The notes under the pieces are model-generated. The model saw nothing but the letters and a program-made list of their open reading frames with translations, did no database searches and was not told the origin of the DNA. Positions 166 to 26,050 of a stretch of 45,570 nt of DNA are shown here, piece after piece. The DNA comes from Acidobacteriota bacterium (lineage in GTDB: Bacteria; Acidobacteriota; CAIWXX01), in assembly GCA_016191015.1 (NCBI GenBank), contig JACPPM010000016.1:1-45570 (forward strand), given 5' to 3'. Every line of letters begins with the position of its first letter. Within the stretch, counting starts at the first letter, position 1. Position numbers and translations under genes: made by a program.

Positions 166-2136
166 ATGACATCGACTCTTCTCCTGATCGCGGTTCTACT
201 GCTGGCTTTCAGCGGTGTGCCCGAACTTATGCGGCCATCGCGTTCCTCCCAATACGTGGCCACCGTATTTTCGCTAGCCGGCTCGGCCGTTGGCCTGATC
301 GGTGCGGTCCTACGTCTGTTGCGCCCGGCCGACGAGCCCTTCATTCTGATCCCCTGGCGCGCTACGGGCGAGTCGCTGCAGCTCGGCGCCGATCCGCTTT
401 CGGCTTTCTTCCTCCTGCCAATTTTCCTGATTTCGGCGTTGGGAGCCATCTACGGCCTCGGCTACTGGCCGGCGGGTCGCGAGCGGAAGCTGCGCTTCTT
501 CTACGGTCTACTCGCGGCTTCGATGGCCCTCGTCGTCATGTCGCGCGATGCGATTTCGTTCCTGATCTCCTGGGAGGTGATGGCCCTCTCCCCGTTCTTC
601 CTGGTGGTGGCCGACGACACCGATCGCTCCACGCGCCGGGCCGGGTGGCTGTACCTCATTGCCACGCATACAGGCACTCTTTGTCTCTTCGCGCTCTTCG
701 CGTTGCTCCACGCAACGACCGGTTCATACCAGCTGTCCATGCTGCCGGCCGGTACCGCGGCATCGAAGGTGGGCGTCCTGATCTTCGTCCTGGCCACGAT
801 CGGGTTCGGGCTGAAGGCGGGCATCATGCCGATGCATGTCTGGCTGCCACCGGCCCACGCTTCCGCGCCCAGTCACGTGTCGGCCATCATGTCCGGAGTG
901 CTGATCAAGATGGGGATCTACGGGCTGATTCGAGCTCTCTCGCTCTTTCCCGAGATTCCGGCATGGTGGGGCGGTACGATCCTGGTTCTCGGCGTCGTCT
1001 CGGGCGTTCTCGGCGTCGCTTTCGCTCTTGGTCAGCACGACCTGAAGCGTCTCCTCGCCTACCACAGTGTCGAGAACATCGGGATCATCATGATAGGGAT
1101 CGGGATGGCGACGCTGGGGCGGTCTCTGGACCATCCTCTCTGGGTGGCGTTGGGCCTCGGAGGGGCGCTGTTCCACGTCCTCAACCACTCGCTCTTCAAG
1201 TCGCTCCTTTTCTACGCCGCGGGCTCGGTCATCCACGCGACCGGGACTCGCGAGATGGACCACCTCGGCGGCCTGCTCAAGCGGATGCCGCGGACCGGAC
1301 TCGCGTTCCTCGTCGGTGCCGTCGCAATCTCCGGTCTGCCGCCGCTCAACGGATTCGCCAGCGAATGGCTCCTGTACCTGGGCTCCTTCCAAACGCTCCA
1401 GGAATCCGGCTCTTCGGCGTGGTTGGCCGGTGGGCTGGCTGCTCCCGCCCTCGCCCTCATCGGTGCTCTCGCCTGCGCCTGTTTCGTGAAGGCGTTTGGG
1501 AGTGTGTTCCTCGGCGAGCCACGAGCCGTGCGCGCAGCTCATTCCGCGGGGCACGAGGCTCCGCGATCCATGATCTGGCCGATGATGCTGATCGCGTCCC
1601 TCTGCGCCGCGCTCGGCCTTGTGCCGGCCGTCCTGACACGCGCCCTCGACGCGGCCATCCTCGTTGCCGCACCAGCGGGACGCTCGCCTGTGCCGCATCT
1701 GTTCGAGGCCGCTCACTACTCCTCGCTGAGCTTGGCAGGGCTTGGGCTGGTCGGATTGATCGCCGTCGTCGCCCTCTTCGCCCGCTGGCGCACACGGTCG
1801 CGCGGAATCGCCGTGGGGCCGACCTGGGATTGTGGCTACGCGGCGCCGAGCAGCACCATGCAATACACCTCGTCCTCCTTCGCCCAGTGGCTGGTCGGTC
1901 TTTTCGCCTGGGCGTTGCGGCCGCGGGTTAGATCCCGCGAGACGCGGGAGGTATTTCCCGGCCCCGTCCACTTCCACAGCGCTGTTCCGGACACGGTGCT
2001 GGACCTCGCCCTGACGCCAGGGTTTCGTGCCGGTGCCTGGCTGCTGACCCGCGCCAGGTTCCTTCAACAAAACCGAGTGCAGGTCTACCTGCTGTATTTC
2101 GCGGTCATCTTGATCGTCCTGCTTTCTTTGGTCTGA
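166..2136 (+). CDS. HyfB/NuoL-like proton-conducting subunit of a hydrogenase-4/Ehr-type complex
   Basis: Predicted 656-residue polytopic membrane protein of the antiporter-like (Mrp/NuoL/HyfB) family, expected to carry one ion path of the membrane arm. Visible family features are the WEVMALSPFF segment with its helix Glu (about residue 131), the conserved GLKAGIMPMHVWLP with its Lys (about 218-231), HDLKRLLAYHSVENIG (about 290-305) and HVLNHSLFKSLLFY (about 338-351). Length matches HyfB/HycC. The start has no clear Shine-Dalgarno; a TAGACT hexamer lies 6 bases upstream of the ATG, so a leaderless transcript is possible but its -35 is poor. The next gene begins 3 bases after the stop. Family identity is firm; assignment to Ehr rests on the large subunit downstream. 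Confidence 0.93.
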   Translation: MTSTLLLIAVLLLAFSGVPELMRPSRSSQYVATVFSLAGSAVGLIGAVLRLLRPADEPFILIPWRATGESLQLGADPLSAFFLLPIFLISALGAIYGLGYWPAGRERKLRFFYGLLAASMALVVMSRDAISFLISWEVMALSPFFLVVADDTDRSTRRAGWLYLIATHTGTLCLFALFALLHATTGSYQLSMLPAGTAASKVGVLIFVLATIGFGLKAGIMPMHVWLPPAHASAPSHVSAIMSGVLIKMGIYGLIRALSLFPEIPAWWGGTILVLGVVSGVLGVAFALGQHDLKRLLAYHSVENIGIIMIGIGMATLGRSLDHPLWVALGLGGALFHVLNHSLFKSLLFYAAGSVIHATGTREMDHLGGLLKRMPRTGLAFLVGAVAISGLPPLNGFASEWLLYLGSFQTLQESGSSAWLAGGLAAPALALIGALACACFVKAFGSVFLGEPRAVRAAHSAGHEAPRSMIWPMMLIASLCAALGLVPAVLTRALDAAILVAAPAGRSPVPHLFEAAHYSSLSLAGLGLVGLIAVVALFARWRTRSRGIAVGPTWDCGYAAPSSTMQYTSSSFAQWLVGLFAWALRPRVRSRETREVFPGPVHFHSAVPDTVLDLALTPGFRAGAWLLTRARFLQQNRVQVYLLYFAVILIVLLSLV

Positions 2137-2139
2137 TCG

Positions 2140-3051
2140 ATGCAGCTCTCGATCGTCGCACACATCCTCGTCGCCGTTGCCCTACCCCCGTTGCTTCCCG
2201 GAATCATCGCACGCACGAAAGCCGCCTTTGCCGGCCGTCAGGGGCCGCCCGTGCTGCAGCTCTACTGTGATCTCGCGAAGCAGATCCGGAAGGGCACGGT
2301 GTTGAGCGGCACCACGACCTGGGTCTTTTTTGCCGGACCGGTCATCGCAGTCACTGCCGGGCTCATCGCGTCTGTTCTCGTCCCGTTCGGCGGTGCTTCT
2401 GCTCCGGTCTCGTTCACAGGCGATGTCGTGTTCTTCACATATCTCTTCGCACTCTCGCGCTTCTTCGTCGCCTCGTCCGCGCTTGACACGGGTTCGGCGT
2501 TTGAGGGCATGGGGGCGGCGCGGGAGGTGAGCTTTGCGGCACTGGCTGAACCGGCGCTGTTTCTCGGGTTCCTCGTGGGGATGCGTCTCACCGGCAGCTT
2601 CTCCCTTTCCGGCATGCTGTCCAAGCCGTGGGCGGGAGGACGATTCGAGGCCGGGGCATCGCTGGTTCTCGTGCTTGTGAGCTGGTTCATCGTCCTGCTG
2701 GCGGAGAACTGCAGGATCCCGGTCGACGATCCGAACACGCACCTCGAGCTGACGATGATTCACGAAGCGATGGTGCTGGACCACAGCGGCCCGCTTTTCG
2801 GTCTCGTTCTCTACGGCGCCGCTCTCAAGCTGATGGTCTTCGGCGCTCTGCTGGTGAGGCTGGTTCTCCCGATCGCGCAGGCCGGGCCGGTGCTGAGCTG
2901 GGTCGCGTTCTGCGCCACGATAATCGGCCTTGCCGTGGTCATCGGCGCCATCGAGTCCATCATCGCGCGCCTCCGACTCGTCCGCGTCCCGATGCTGCTT
3001 GTGACGGCGTGCCTCCTCTCGGCATTCGCCCTCATTCTGCTTTTCAGGTAG
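2140..3051 (+). CDS. HyfC/NuoH-like membrane subunit (respiratory-chain NADH dehydrogenase subunit 1 family)
   Basis: 303-residue membrane protein with about eight hydrophobic segments, homologous to HyfC, HycD and NuoH. It would form the junction between the peripheral arm and the ion-pumping modules. The diagnostic cytoplasmic loop is present: AENCRIPVDDPNTHLELT followed by MIHEAM (about residues 187-212), carrying the acidic cluster conserved in the family. An N-terminal AKAAFAGRQGP-type segment and LQLYCDLAKQ also match the family. The gene lies 3 bases after HyfB and 6 bases before the next gene, so it is surely cotranscribed. No odd features. Confidence 0.93.
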   Translation: MQLSIVAHILVAVALPPLLPGIIARTKAAFAGRQGPPVLQLYCDLAKQIRKGTVLSGTTTWVFFAGPVIAVTAGLIASVLVPFGGASAPVSFTGDVVFFTYLFALSRFFVASSALDTGSAFEGMGAAREVSFAALAEPALFLGFLVGMRLTGSFSLSGMLSKPWAGGRFEAGASLVLVLVSWFIVLLAENCRIPVDDPNTHLELTMIHEAMVLDHSGPLFGLVLYGAALKLMVFGALLVRLVLPIAQAGPVLSWVAFCATIIGLAVVIGAIESIIARLRLVRVPMLLVTACLLSAFALILLFR

Positions 3052-3057
3052 GCGCAG

Positions 3058-3699
3058 ATGGCTCAACCCGTCGACCTCGTCCTCGTCCTGGTGCTCCTGG
3101 CTAACTTCCTCATCCTCGGCACCGGCTGGATGCGCGTCTGCATCCGCGCGGCCGCGTTCCAGGGGGTGCTCCTGAGTCTCCTCCCATTGCTGAGCCCCGG
3201 CGAGATGGTCTGGCGCGTGATCGTCATGGCCGCCGGCGCCGCCATCGTGAAGGGCATCCTGATTCCGAGCCTGCTGGTCAAAGCCATGCGCGATGTGCAC
3301 ATCAGGCATGAAGTCGAGCCCTATGTCGGCTTCATTCCATCTCTCTTTCTGTGCGCGCTCGGAACGGGCTTCGCCATTCTTTTCTCAGGCCGTCTGCCGC
3401 TGGCTGCCGAACACGTCGGAACGCTGCTCGTGCCAGCAGCCCTGTCGACACTGCTCAGCGGCTTCCTCGTTCTCATCACCCGGAAATTCGCCATCACTCA
3501 GGTCGTCGGGTATCTGGTGCTCGAGAACGGCATATTCGTCTTCGGGCTCCTGCTCATCGAGGCGATGCCGTTCATGGTGGAAGTCGGCGTGCTGCTGGAC
3601 CTCTTCGTCGGTATCTTCATCATGGGCATCGTGCTGAACCACATCCAACGGGAGTTCTCAGCGCCCGAGATCGAGCTGCTGGCGGACGAGGAGGAGTGA
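3058..3699 (+). CDS. HyfE-like membrane subunit (NuoK-related)
   Basis: 213-residue protein with about six to seven transmembrane segments, similar in length and layout to HyfE of hydrogenase 4. The C-terminal half (ITQVVGYLVLENGIFVFG, about residues 148-165) carries the helix Glu typical of NuoK/MrpC-like subunits. It is expected to couple the antiporter-like subunits to the HyfC module. The final residues (ELLADEEE) are acidic and cytoplasmic. Its TGA overlaps the ATG of the next gene (ATGA at 3696-3699 region), which points to translational coupling. Confidence 0.88.
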   Translation: MAQPVDLVLVLVLLANFLILGTGWMRVCIRAAAFQGVLLSLLPLLSPGEMVWRVIVMAAGAAIVKGILIPSLLVKAMRDVHIRHEVEPYVGFIPSLFLCALGTGFAILFSGRLPLAAEHVGTLLVPAALSTLLSGFLVLITRKFAITQVVGYLVLENGIFVFGLLLIEAMPFMVEVGVLLDLFVGIFIMGIVLNHIQREFSAPEIELLADEEE

Positions 3700-5135
3700 T
3701 GATGCTCGAGTTGCTGATTGGTCTCCCTATCGTCGCCGCGGCCGTCGCCTTCCTCTGCCCCAGCGACCGCCTCCGCCCGTGGCTCCTCCCCGCAGCCGGT
3801 CTCGCTCACCTGGGCACCCTCGGCGCGTCCGCCTATGCGGGGCAACCTGCAGCTCCTCGCGTGTGGTTGGGGTTCGATGCTTTGGGCACGCTTCTGCTCG
3901 GCATCGTCAGCCTCCTGTTCCTGCTCTGCGGGCTCTATGCCCCACGCTACCTGGCGCTGCGCGCCGAACGTCCGAACCGGATCTTCTGCACGTGCTACCT
4001 GCTCTTTCTTGCCGCCGCGTCGGTGGTCCTGCTCTCGCGGCACCTCGGACTGCTGTGGGTGGCCGTCGAAGCGCTCACCCTCGTCACGGCACCCCTCGTC
4101 TACTTCAACCGCAACTCCCGCTCGATCGCGGCGACCTGGAACTACCTGATGATCAGTTCGGTTGGCATCGCCCTCGCCCTGCTCGGCTCTCTTTTCCTCG
4201 CCTATTCAGCGCACATCGGGGGCAGCGGCACATCTCTGCTCTTCGACGATCTGGCCCTGAATGCGGGAGGGTTCGCGAAGCCCTGGCTGCGCGCCGCCTT
4301 CGTCCTGCTGTTGCTGGGGTACGGGACGAAGATGGGACTCGCCCCACTCCACACCTGGAAGCCGGAAGCTTACGGCGAGGCTCCCGGGATCGTCGGCGCG
4401 ATCCTGGCCGGGGGCGTCACCAGCTGCGCGTTCGCAGCGCTCCTGCGCGTCTACCGGGTCATCAACATCGCGGGAGAAGGGCCGTTCGCCAGAAAGCTTC
4501 TCGTGTTTATGGGGTTGCTCTCGATGGCCTGGGCCGCGGCGTTCATGGTGCGGCAGCGCGATTTCAAGAAACTCCTCGCCTACTCCAGCATCGAGCACAT
4601 GGGGATCCTCGTGCTGGGCATCGGCATCGGAGGAGCAGGGGTCTGGGGGGCGATTCTGCACGCGATCAATAACGGGCTCACCAAGGGAGCGATGTTTCTG
4701 ACGGCCGGCAACATCCACCGCGCGTACGGGGCGAAGACGACGGGCGAGGTGCGCGGAGCGCTGCGGCGCGTGCCGGTTTCAGCAGGTGTCTTCCTCGCAG
4801 CGTTTTTCGCGATCACCGGCTCGCCGCCATTCGGACCGTTCGTCAGCCAGTTCACGGTCCTCAACGCGGCCATCGGCGGCGGGCACGGGCGCGCGGCGGC
4901 GGTGTTTCTGATCCTGCTCGGCATCGTCTTTTTCGGCATGGGCGCCACAGTCCTGTCGATCCTGCAAGGGACGCCGTCGGTCGAGGCCGAGGCGACGAGT
5001 TTTCGTGATGAGGTCGCCAACGTCGCCCCCGCGATCGCAGCAATTCTGATCGTGCTGGTTCTGGGAATCTGGATTCCGGACCCCCTCGGTGACTTGATCG
5101 ACCAGGCAGCCGCGGGCCTCGAGGTGCGTCCGTGA
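3699..5135 (+). CDS. HyfF/NuoN-like proton-conducting subunit
   Basis: I place the start at the ATG at 3699, which overlaps the preceding TGA; a second ATG follows directly at 3702, and the open frame extends upstream only as a shadow of HyfE. The product is about 478 residues with some 13-14 hydrophobic segments. Antiporter-family marks are the helix Glu in GLLWVAVEALTLVTAP, the GYGTKMGLAPLHTWKPEAY motif with its Lys, RDFKKLLAYSSIEHMGIL and HAINNGLTKGAMF. This is the second ion-path subunit next to HyfB. HyfD is not present as a separate gene. The stop overlaps the GTG of the next gene. Confidence 0.92.
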   Translation: MMLELLIGLPIVAAAVAFLCPSDRLRPWLLPAAGLAHLGTLGASAYAGQPAAPRVWLGFDALGTLLLGIVSLLFLLCGLYAPRYLALRAERPNRIFCTCYLLFLAAASVVLLSRHLGLLWVAVEALTLVTAPLVYFNRNSRSIAATWNYLMISSVGIALALLGSLFLAYSAHIGGSGTSLLFDDLALNAGGFAKPWLRAAFVLLLLGYGTKMGLAPLHTWKPEAYGEAPGIVGAILAGGVTSCAFAALLRVYRVINIAGEGPFARKLLVFMGLLSMAWAAAFMVRQRDFKKLLAYSSIEHMGILVLGIGIGGAGVWGAILHAINNGLTKGAMFLTAGNIHRAYGAKTTGEVRGALRRVPVSAGVFLAAFFAITGSPPFGPFVSQFTVLNAAIGGGHGRAAAVFLILLGIVFFGMGATVLSILQGTPSVEAEATSFRDEVANVAPAIAAILIVLVLGIWIPDPLGDLIDQAAAGLEVRP

Positions 5136-6640
5136 CGGACATCTTCGTTACCGGGAAGAACGCGCGCCCGATCACACTGGCGGCCCTGCCGGAATGCGAC
5201 GTCGACGCACTAAGAGAAGGAATCCTGCAGCGTGTCGAGAACGGGGGGAGGCTCGCGGCCCTGTTCGGAGACGCGTGCGAGGACGGCGCCATCATGATGT
5301 ATGCGGTGATCGCTGACGATTCCGAGGGGCAGTTGGCAGTGGGCCGGGCCAAGCTCGAATCGGCTTCCTATGCTGCCCTGACGCCGGACTGCGCACAGGC
5401 CCACTGGTTCGAGAGGGAGATGGCCGAGCAGTTTGGCCTGAAGCCCGATGGTCATCCGTGGCTGAAGCCGATCAGGTTCCAGAGGCCGCTGAGCTCGGAT
5501 CGCGAGCCTGCCGAGCTGCCACAGATCGGCGTGACGGATTTTTATAGGGTCCGCGGCGAGGAGGTCCACGAAGTGGCCGTGGGACCCGTTCACGCGGGCG
5601 TGATCGAACCAGGGCACTTCCGATTCCAGTGCCATGGCGAAAACGTCTTCCATCTGGAGATTTCGCTCGGCTACCAGCACCGCGGCATCGAACGGGCGTT
5701 CGTTGGAGGGCCGCACAAGCTGACTGTCCATCAGGTGGAAACGATCGCGGGGGACACGACTGCCGGCCATGCGATCGCGTACTGTCAGGCGGTCGAGGCG
5801 CTCTCGGCCGTATCGCCGCCGTCGCGCGCGTTGGCGCTGCGCGGGATCGCGCTGGAGCTCGAACGACTGGCGAACCACGTGGGGGATCTCGGCGCGCTGA
5901 GCGGTGATGTCGGCTATCTGCCGACGGCGTCGTACTGCGGGCGCATCCGTGGTGATTTCCTGAACATGACCGCGTCGCTGTGCGGGAGCCGCTTCGGGCG
6001 CGGTCTGATCCGGCCGGGGGGCGTCGCGTTCGATTGCAGCGAAAGCGATCGAGCGCAACTCGTGGAGAAGCTCGCGATCGCAGAGAAGGATGCGAAGAAC
6101 GCCGTCGAGTTGCTCTGGGCCATGTCGAGTGTGGTGGCGCGGTTCGAGAATACGGGAACGGTGGGGCGGGCGATGTGTGAGGAAATCGGGCTGGTCGGCC
6201 CGGCGGCGCGCGCGTGCGGAATCGAACGAGACGTACGCCACGATCATCCGGCCGGCATCTATCAGTATGCGCAGGTCCCGGTGATGACGGGGCACCACGG
6301 CGATGTCAACTCGCGCGCGATCGTGCGTTGGCTCGAGATGCAGCAGTCGATCGAGTTCGTCCGGGACCGTTTGGCCAACTTGCCCGCATCGCCCCTCATG
6401 GCCTCTGCGGCACAGATCGCCGCCGACGCGATGACCGTCTCGATGGTCGAAGCGTGGCGAGGCGAGATCTGCCACGTCGCCATCACCGATGATCGCGGGC
6501 GCTTTCGGAGGTACAAGATCGTCGATCCGTCCTTCCACAACTGGTTCGGACTGGCCGTGGCGCTGCGAGGGCAGCAGATCTCCGACTTCCCGCTCTGCAA
6601 CAAGAGCTTCAACCTCTCGTACTGCGGGCACGACCTATGA
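5132..6640 (+). CDS. HyfG/HycE-like large subunit (NuoC-NuoD fusion) lacking the NiFe-binding cysteines
   Basis: 502 residues. Residues about 1-130 resemble the 30-kDa NuoC domain (HWFEREMAEQFGL, HPWLKPIRF). Residues about 150-502 resemble NuoD/HycE (GPVHAGVIEPGHFRF, EISLGYQHRGIERAF). In NiFe hydrogenases the first motif reads roughly ERICGxC; here the aligned segment is ETIAGDTT (residues 203-210) with no Cys. The C-terminal DPCxxC motif is replaced by DFPLCNKSFNLSYCGHDL, whose Cys489 and Cys498 have the wrong spacing. The protein should therefore not bind NiFe, which is the defining trait of Ehr (energy-converting hydrogenase-related) complexes. GTG start chosen because it overlaps the previous stop as GTGA. 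The electron partner is unknown. Confidence 0.92.
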   Translation: MTDIFVTGKNARPITLAALPECDVDALREGILQRVENGGRLAALFGDACEDGAIMMYAVIADDSEGQLAVGRAKLESASYAALTPDCAQAHWFEREMAEQFGLKPDGHPWLKPIRFQRPLSSDREPAELPQIGVTDFYRVRGEEVHEVAVGPVHAGVIEPGHFRFQCHGENVFHLEISLGYQHRGIERAFVGGPHKLTVHQVETIAGDTTAGHAIAYCQAVEALSAVSPPSRALALRGIALELERLANHVGDLGALSGDVGYLPTASYCGRIRGDFLNMTASLCGSRFGRGLIRPGGVAFDCSESDRAQLVEKLAIAEKDAKNAVELLWAMSSVVARFENTGTVGRAMCEEIGLVGPAARACGIERDVRHDHPAGIYQYAQVPVMTGHHGDVNSRAIVRWLEMQQSIEFVRDRLANLPASPLMASAAQIAADAMTVSMVEAWRGEICHVAITDDRGRFRRYKIVDPSFHNWFGLAVALRGQQISDFPLCNKSFNLSYCGHDL

Positions 6641-7425
6641 TCAGGGCCCTTCTCGCGCGGATGCATCAGCGGCACCGGACGATCAAGTATCCGGACGGAC
6701 CCGCCCCGGCGCTCCCCGCGCGCTTCCGGGGACTGCCGCGGATCGAGACCGGCCGGTGCGAGCAGGGGTGCCGCGATTGCGCCGAGGCGTGCCCGACGGA
6801 TGCGATCCGGCTCGACGGCGGCGGCATCCGCCTCGATCTGGGCAAGTGTCTTTTCTGTTCCGAGTGTGAGCGGGCCTGTCCGCAGAAAGCGATTGAATAC
6901 ACACAGGACTACAGGCTTGCGGCGTCGAACCGCGAGGATCTGATCATCGGAGAGAAGGATCTACGGCACGCACAGTCCATGGGACGCGAGCTGCGACGGC
7001 TGCTAGGCCGTTCTTTGCGGCTCCGTGTCGTGAGTGCCGGCGGGTGCAACGGATGCGAGCTGGATGTGAACGTGCTGAGCACCGTCGTATGGGACATCGG
7101 CCGATTCGGCATCCAGTACGTCGCGTCACCGCGCCACGCCGACGGCCTCATCGTCACCGGCCCCGTGACCGAGAACATGCAGTTAGCGTTGAGGAAGACC
7201 TACGATGCCGTGCCCGCCCCAAAGATCGTCATCGCGGTCGGCGCATGCGCCATCAGCGGCGGGCCGTATCTGAATCAGCGAGAGCAGCACGGCGGCGCCG
7301 CCTCGACCGTCCCCGTAGACCTCTACATCCCCGGCTGCCCGCCACATCCGCTCACGATCCTCGACGGGCTCCTGCGACTCATCGGGCGGATCGGCGTGGC
7401 CCAAGTGCGGGAGTCACGGGGCTGA
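6637..7425 (+). CDS. Fused ferredoxin-like (HyfH) and NuoB-like (HyfI) subunit
   Basis: 262-residue protein starting at an ATGA overlap with the large subunit. Residues about 40-90 hold two 4Fe-4S motifs. The second (CLFCSECERACP) has normal spacing; the first (CEQGCRDCAEACP) has three residues between Cys 1 and Cys 2 in place of two. Residues about 128-255 are NuoB/HyfI-like with GGCNGCELD, VGACAISGG and PGCPPHP, supplying four cysteines for the proximal (N2-type) cluster. In E. coli hyf these are two genes, so this is a fusion, giving a chain of three clusters in one polypeptide. It should pass electrons to or from the NiFe-less large subunit. It closes the operon; no terminator is evident. 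Confidence 0.92.
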   Translation: MIRALLARMHQRHRTIKYPDGPAPALPARFRGLPRIETGRCEQGCRDCAEACPTDAIRLDGGGIRLDLGKCLFCSECERACPQKAIEYTQDYRLAASNREDLIIGEKDLRHAQSMGRELRRLLGRSLRLRVVSAGGCNGCELDVNVLSTVVWDIGRFGIQYVASPRHADGLIVTGPVTENMQLALRKTYDAVPAPKIVIAVGACAISGGPYLNQREQHGGAASTVPVDLYIPGCPPHPLTILDGLLRLIGRIGVAQVRESRG

Positions 7426-19059: not shown

Positions 19060-19271
19060 TCGGAGGCCAGGACCGCCGAAAAGTCGCAGAGCAGATCTCG
19101 GCGAGTCCTCTCCGGAGGAAACCGCAGATTTCCGCGCAGATTACGCAGACTCTTCCAGCATTCGACCGACGAACAACTTGCTCCTCACTCTCGGGTCGGC
19201 GCGAAGCAATCGGCGACATCTGCGATTCAATCTGTGAAATCTGCGGTTTCCGGGACTTTGCCGTAGCCTTG
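19060..19271 (+). repeat. Family A dispersed palindromic repeat, copy A2
   Basis: Contains perfect 16-bp terminal arms GGAAACCGCAGATTTC (19117-19132) and GAAATCTGCGGTTTCC (19236-19251) around a core shared with A1 and A3. Outside the arms, further sequence is also shared (GGGACTTTGCCGTAGCCTTG on the right; a GTCGCA...GTCC..CCGGAGG block on the left). It fills nearly all of the gap 18995-19314. Confidence 0.9.
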
Positions 19272-25795: not shown

Positions 25796-25840
25796 TGGGT
25801 CGGGGTCGGGTACGGGAACGGGAACGAGTGGGGGAATGAG

Positions 25841-26050
25841 CAAGGCTAAGGCAAAGTCCCGGAAATCGCAGATTTCACAGATTGACTCGCAGATGTCGCC
25901 GATTGCTTCGCGCCGACCCGAGAGTGAGGAGCGAGTTGCTCGTCGGTTGAATGCTGGAAGTATCTGCGTAATCTGCGCGGAAATCTGCGTCATCTGCGGT
26001 TTCCTCCGATCGACTTCACCCGGACTTCGCGGTGCGACTTTGACGTTCCC
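25841..26050 (-). repeat. Family A dispersed palindromic repeat, copy A3 (complete, inverted)
   Basis: Reads CAAGGCTAAGGCAAAGTCCCGG at its left, matching the inverse of the right end of A1 and A2, through the same core, to ...CTTTGACGTTCCC at its right. The last 73 bases (25978-26050) are identical to 30063-30135. It occupies most of the gap between the EamA gene and the aminotransferase; the short stretch before it is G-rich (GGGTACGGGAACGGGAACG). Confidence 0.9.

Follow-up and report, generated by a model that had tools for sequence, protein, structure and literature searches.

An Ehr-family operon in an Acidobacteriota genome encodes a six-subunit membrane complex whose large subunit lacks the NiFe ligands

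The window, that is, the whole stretch of 45,570 nucleotides analysed here, is one entire contig (G000:C118) of a 6.43 Mb draft genome of an Acidobacteriota bacterium. Near its start, six tightly packed genes at 166-7425 encode HyfB, HyfC, HyfE, HyfF, a large subunit and a small subunit. The features are as follows.

1-138, no strand assigned: dispersed repeat (blastn identity 89-93%; pattern scan, 4 matches against 0 expected)
166-2136, plus strand: HyfB/EhrA, NuoL-like antiporter subunit, 656 aa (Pfam PF00361, E=2.6e-53)
2140-3051, plus strand: HyfC/EhrB, NuoH-like subunit, 303 aa (Pfam PF00146, E=2.9e-30)
3058-3699, plus strand: HyfE/EhrC-like small membrane subunit, 213 aa (NCBIfam hydrogenase 4 membrane subunit, E=8e-17, under the curated cut-off)
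3699-5135, plus strand: HyfF/EhrD, NuoM/N-like antiporter subunit (Pfam PF00361, E=8.4e-43)
5132-6640, plus strand: EhrL (HyfG-like), fused NuoC+NuoD large subunit (PF00346, E=9.4e-40; PF00329, E=1.3e-5)
6637-7425, plus strand: EhrS, fused ferredoxin domain and NuoB-type domain (PF01058, E=6.3e-29; Fer4 families)

Further copies of the repeat, which is about 135 bp long, lie at 25838-25975, at 19137-19271 and in G000:C61. The assembly break at the contig start falls within this repeat and hyfB begins 165 nt further on, so the upstream context of the operon is not visible in the window. The ATG start of hyfF at 3699 overlaps the stop of hyfE. HyfB scored 581 bits against the NCBIfam family hydrogenase 4 subunit B, for which the cut-off is 667, and the match of HyfF to hydrogenase 4 subunit F was also under its cut-off. 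A scan for promoters and terminators gave no signal clearly above chance, and the window genes downstream of the operon were not conserved with Ehr in the neighbourhoods of relatives. All six subunits are intact. The description of the membrane complex as complete in the original prediction can be kept for these six core subunits; many relatives, however, carry a second NuoL-like subunit (gene order B B C E F G HI). The rest of the assembly yielded no further HyfB of the Ehr type.

EhrL begins with GTG and comprises 502 aa in an intact frame, with no frameshift. Re-reading of the sequence confirmed the coordinates and the operon as first described, together with ETIAGDTT at 203-210, the terminal motif DFPLCNKSFNLSYCGHDL, and Cys489 and Cys498. 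The EhrL signature consists of AGDT (206-209) and SDFPLCNKSFNLSYCGHDL (484-502), without NiFe ligands. A true group-4 hydrogenase paralogue with 38% identity to EhrL is encoded in the same genome (G000:C61) and contains ERICGVC and LCYSCTDR. In the gapless alignment of the two proteins, the first ligand pair corresponds to A206/T209 and the second to S496/G499, whereas Cys498 aligns with the Ser between the two C-terminal ligands of the paralogue and not with a ligand. Thus none of the four ligand cysteines is present, both CxxC motifs are absent from the NuoD-like subunit as had been claimed, and neither is restored by frame or alignment correction. Part of the large-subunit gene is also present a second time: a contig end, L039:1-408 (G000:C251), contains a copy of residues about 229-361, with 96.8% DNA identity, 9 synonymous nucleotide changes, 3 amino-acid changes and unrelated sequence joined upstream.

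Two motif types were counted among relatives under the working names Ehr-A (97 sequences) and Ehr-B (8 sequences), 105 in all. The ligand columns of Ehr-A hold A/S, T/S (rarely A or V), S and G, and those of Ehr-B hold S/A, S/T, S and G; all four are Cys in 7/7 hydrogenases. A single Cys was found at column 206 among the 97 Ehr-A sequences, in L063. An assembly error is excluded: the reading frame is unbroken along all 502 aa, and 97 relatives from more than 10 phyla carry the same replacements. Asp208, located between the lost ligands of the N-terminal pair, is present in 105/105 Ehr-A and Ehr-B sequences and in 0/7 hydrogenases.

Cys489 and Cys498 had been considered unusual, a view that the comparison with relatives does not bear out. 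C489 occurs in 93/97 and C498 in 88/97 Ehr-A sequences, and both occur in 85/97; the exceptions are Cys/Ala in 8, Asn/Cys in 3 and one sequence that is not resolved there. In Ehr-B, C489 is found in 5/8 sequences and C498 in 0/8, position 498 being Ser or Ala in all 8. Judging from these alignments, the two cysteines are a signature of the Ehr-A clade rather than a peculiarity of the window's genome. Neither is strictly required.

In a tree that had HycE-type and NuoD sequences as outgroups, Ehr-A forms one clade with a support of 100/100. The Geobacter and Geomonas sequences, including Geobacter argillaceus, fall in this same clade with the EhrL of the window; the EhrL of G. sulfurreducens itself was left out of the tree. 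Ehr-A and Ehr-B join at 100/99, and the NiFe-bearing type of C61 is their sister with an insecure support of 91/72. A third NiFe-less group-4-like large subunit was observed in L155, L159 and L164, with TGTS, SGTS or AGST followed by ATFGLSTAEGDR; 2/3 of these lack the equivalent of E159. This type branches outside the group of Ehr and the NiFe-bearing sister, again with weak support (91/72), and two independent losses of NiFe are only suggested by the sequences.

In the literature, Ehr (energy-converting or Ech hydrogenase-related) complexes are said to resemble group 4, to lack the NiFe cysteines in most cases and to have no assigned function (PMC10284858, PMC6349859, PMC3569383). The known hosts include Geobacter, Methylacidiphilum and comammox Nitrospira. 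The large subunit of the window is related to group 4 and lacks the NiFe cysteines, a membrane arm resembling those of complex I and Ech is encoded in the same operon (HyfB, C, E, F at 166-5135), and the protein groups with Ehr sequences already described and separately from the enzymes that bear NiFe. By alignment, phylogeny and literature, the original assignment to Ehr is right, and its remark that the donor and acceptor of Ehr complexes are undefined agrees with the same three papers. On sequence grounds, the locus is a further, ordinary member of the already described family of the Geobacter ehrABCDLS type. GSU0739-0745 of Geobacter sulfurreducens and ehrABCDLS of Methylacidiphilum resemble the window in subunit set, gene order and loss of the NiFe cysteines. 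Geobacter Ehr has two NuoL-like HyfB-type subunits (EhrA-1 and EhrA-2), while one is present in the window, where the upstream region lies beyond the contig.

Formate hydrogenlyase and hydrogenase-4 of E. coli (HycE, HyfG; PDB 7z0s) share with the window operon the fold, the fused NuoC+NuoD, the HyfBCEF-type membrane arm and a conserved equivalent of E159, but this operon lacks the NiFe ligands and the C-terminal processing peptide and encodes neither HycB nor a subunit of formate dehydrogenase. The hydrogenase in C61, group 4f-like in our reading, shares the NKSF motif, the six-gene architecture and the absence of a C-terminal extension; unlike EhrL, it has its CGVC and CYSC ligands. Complex I (Nqo4/NuoD) has homologous subunits and is also devoid of all four NiFe cysteines; the window operon differs in having no NuoEFG, in not conserving H38 and Y87, and in having a proximal CxxC instead of CC. 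The Pyrococcus MBS complex is likewise a hydrogenase relative that lost NiFe, but it has a three-Cys proximal cluster, no equivalent of E21 and an Mrp-type membrane arm.

Within the phylum, 31/199 genomes scored as Ehr-A, this assignment being made by score and the motifs being read only in extracted sequences. Of these 31, 12 gave no HypD match; 11 of the 12, spread over five families, have a completeness of 96% or more. Ehr-A therefore does not show the strict association with HypD that would be expected of a group-4 [NiFe] hydrogenase, and no dependence of the family on hydrogenase maturation genes emerged, though HypD is present in the genome of the window, alongside other NiFe hydrogenases that could use it. 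The scan recovered more than 580 relatives from more than 10 phyla. POR (PF01558) was considered as a sign of ferredoxin metabolism and discarded as uninformative, being found in 190/199 genomes. Several other loci were recorded during this survey. In G019 (L047:7366-9610), a 100%-complete genome, EhrL and EhrS occur with no Ehr-type HyfB at any other place in the genome, and the antiporter genes found are only of the complex I type. A Verrucomicrobia genome (L106:12530-19898) contains a complete second operon of Ehr-B type directly behind its Ehr-A operon. In L161 and L180:7540-8862, a TGA replaces the second Cys of CGIC in a HycE-like large subunit and is followed by a hairpin of -14.3 kcal/mol (z -1.8); this codon is possibly a selenocysteine in the N-terminal motif, or else a nonsense mutation.

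The Fe-S chain and the pump residues are preserved. The ferredoxin domain of EhrS has eight cysteines (41, 45, 48, 52, 71, 74, 77, 81), and its NuoB-type domain has C137, C140, C204 and C234, a hydrogenase-type CxxC four-Cys proximal cluster. Three [4Fe-4S] clusters are predicted, and each of the 12 cysteines is kept in 74-83 of 86 homologues. By conservation count, the charged pumping residues are near-invariant in HyfB, HyfF and HyfC: E137, K217, K248 and K345 of HyfB are present in 76-81 of 84 rows, the remainder being mostly gaps, and E137, E203, H208 and E209 of HyfC are invariant among relatives. Profile alignment matches E159 of EhrL, invariant in Ehr, to E21 of MbhL, which has been described as the key residue for proton reduction in MBH (PMC7684303). 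H38 and Y87, the quinone ligands of complex I, fall on I158 and G207 of EhrL when the profile is aligned to 2fug_4, which means that the quinone site of complex I is absent. Together, the retained E159, Fe-S cysteines and pump residues point to a machine for electron transfer and ion pumping with a changed terminal acceptor. An AlphaFold model of EhrL from a 66-row alignment reached a mean pLDDT of 91.6; its best fold match was HycE (TM 0.89), followed by complex I NuoCD, and the profile comparison with HycE (7z0s_E) gave E=5.4e-87. The pLDDT fell below 50 at 155-158 and 498-502, so the model is no guide to the Cys pair and the pocket. The low confidence of the tail at 498-502 is perhaps due to a partner subunit missing from the single-chain model.

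The operon probably encodes an Ehr-family membrane oxidoreductase rather than a hydrogenase, namely a redox-driven ion pump with a ferredoxin-like donor and an acceptor in the former NiFe pocket. Alignment, ligand columns, Fe-S and pump conservation, the structure model, the clade and the HypD-free genomes all support this reading. Electrons from a low-potential ferredoxin-like carrier, or from a formate dehydrogenase encoded elsewhere, would enter the two ferredoxin-type clusters of EhrS and continue to the proximal [4Fe-4S] cluster. The former NiFe pocket of EhrL, which would now be lined by E159, D208, S496 and the NKSF...SYCGHDL tail, would then be the site where a small acceptor, perhaps a quinone, is reduced, and the energy may be relayed via the NuoH-like subunit to the two antiporter-like subunits, which would pump H+ or Na+. 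Given a high-potential donor, the reverse reaction might take place, the ion gradient driving the formation of reduced ferredoxin. We infer the donor, acceptor, direction and pumping. Given the replacement of H38/Y87 by I158/G207, a quinone would need a different binding mode in EhrL. Ehr subunits are abundant in formate-grown Geobacter, and the operon GSU0739-0745 is higher on formate (PMC7894505), which shows expression; no measured activity for any Ehr complex was reported in the literature found. Besides the I158/G207 replacements and the lack of a reported activity, the lack of a consistently linked donor or acceptor gene at Ehr loci and the absence of Ehr-type HyfB from G019 stand against the pump. 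No conserved dehydrogenase partner appeared across the gene neighbourhoods compared.

Other readings of the same residues must be weighed. Sulfane or polysulfide reduction after the manner of archaeal MBS has in its favour that MBS also lost the NiFe ligands and lacks H38/Y87, and that its pocket holds a hydrophobic substrate (PMC7684303); MBS chemistry, however, uses a three-Cys proximal cluster, whereas all four Cys of the EhrS cluster are present and conserved, and MBS is missing the E21 equivalent with which the invariant E159 of Ehr aligns. The continued activity of MBS mutants of Cys85/Cys385 further indicates that leftover pocket cysteines need not be catalytic (PMC7684303). This explanation is quite improbable. 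The replacement of the NiFe centre by a new metal or redox-active disulfide site, formed by Cys489 and Cys498 with D208, is unlikely as well. The high conservation of the two cysteines in Ehr-A and the constancy of D208 speak for such a site, but 8 Ehr-A sequences that are typical in other respects have Ala498 and 3 have Asn489, and position 498 is Ser or Ala throughout Ehr-B, which speaks against it; moreover, the cysteines are nine residues apart in a tail of low model confidence.

Intact antiporter subunits would also suit a complex whose main role is ion antiport in the homeostasis of pH or Na+, as proposed for Methylacidiphilum (PMC6688271), and whose peripheral arm is regulatory instead of catalytic; the strong conservation of all 12 Fe-S cysteines is hard to explain without electron transfer, which leaves this role little probability. 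A decaying, non-functional remnant of a hydrogenase is the least credible reading by far, and the conservation pattern already disfavours it. One paper treats Ehr as non-functional (PMC13194489), and the membrane arm has apparently been lost in G019, but the frames are intact, the residues are invariant across more than 10 phyla, the relatives number more than 580, and expression is seen in Geobacter.

A gene coding for a fusion of HTH_17 and PTS EIIA_2 adjoins the Ehr operon in 50/94 loci from several phyla (L045:869-1540, L046:9243-9911, L057:4262-4969 and others). It is usually located directly upstream on the same strand and sometimes, in Verrucomicrobia, between subunit genes; in L045 and L046, both closely related, the gene directly adjoins hyfB or overlaps it. 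An IPH motif is kept in 20/31 clustered copies. A search of the genome of the window returned HTH parts only, and a narrow literature search found no mention of a link between Ehr and EIIA. The HTH-EIIA protein is a possible regulator. At L088:3-12371, EhrL-EhrS and HTH-EIIA were observed beside DabA, two antiporter proteins and a SulP+PII transporter. An Ehr-DabA inorganic-carbon module was rejected here, the Ehr membrane genes of that genome being on another contig (L178), and across the phylum DabA occurs in only 2/199 genomes, both without Ehr. There is a small chance that the former NiFe pocket represents a third kind of active site (E159, D208 and the C489/C498 tail), whose acceptor would be neither protons, a complex I-style quinone nor polysulfide, and which would be under a DNA-binding PTS EIIA-type regulator encoded beside many Ehr operons.

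Ehr complexes are widespread and have no established reaction, and the window adds one ordinary member to them. The residue signature, the HypD-free genomes and the HTH-EIIA linkage provide handles for finding the Ehr substrate, and the same handles bear on how hydrogenases and complex I diverged.
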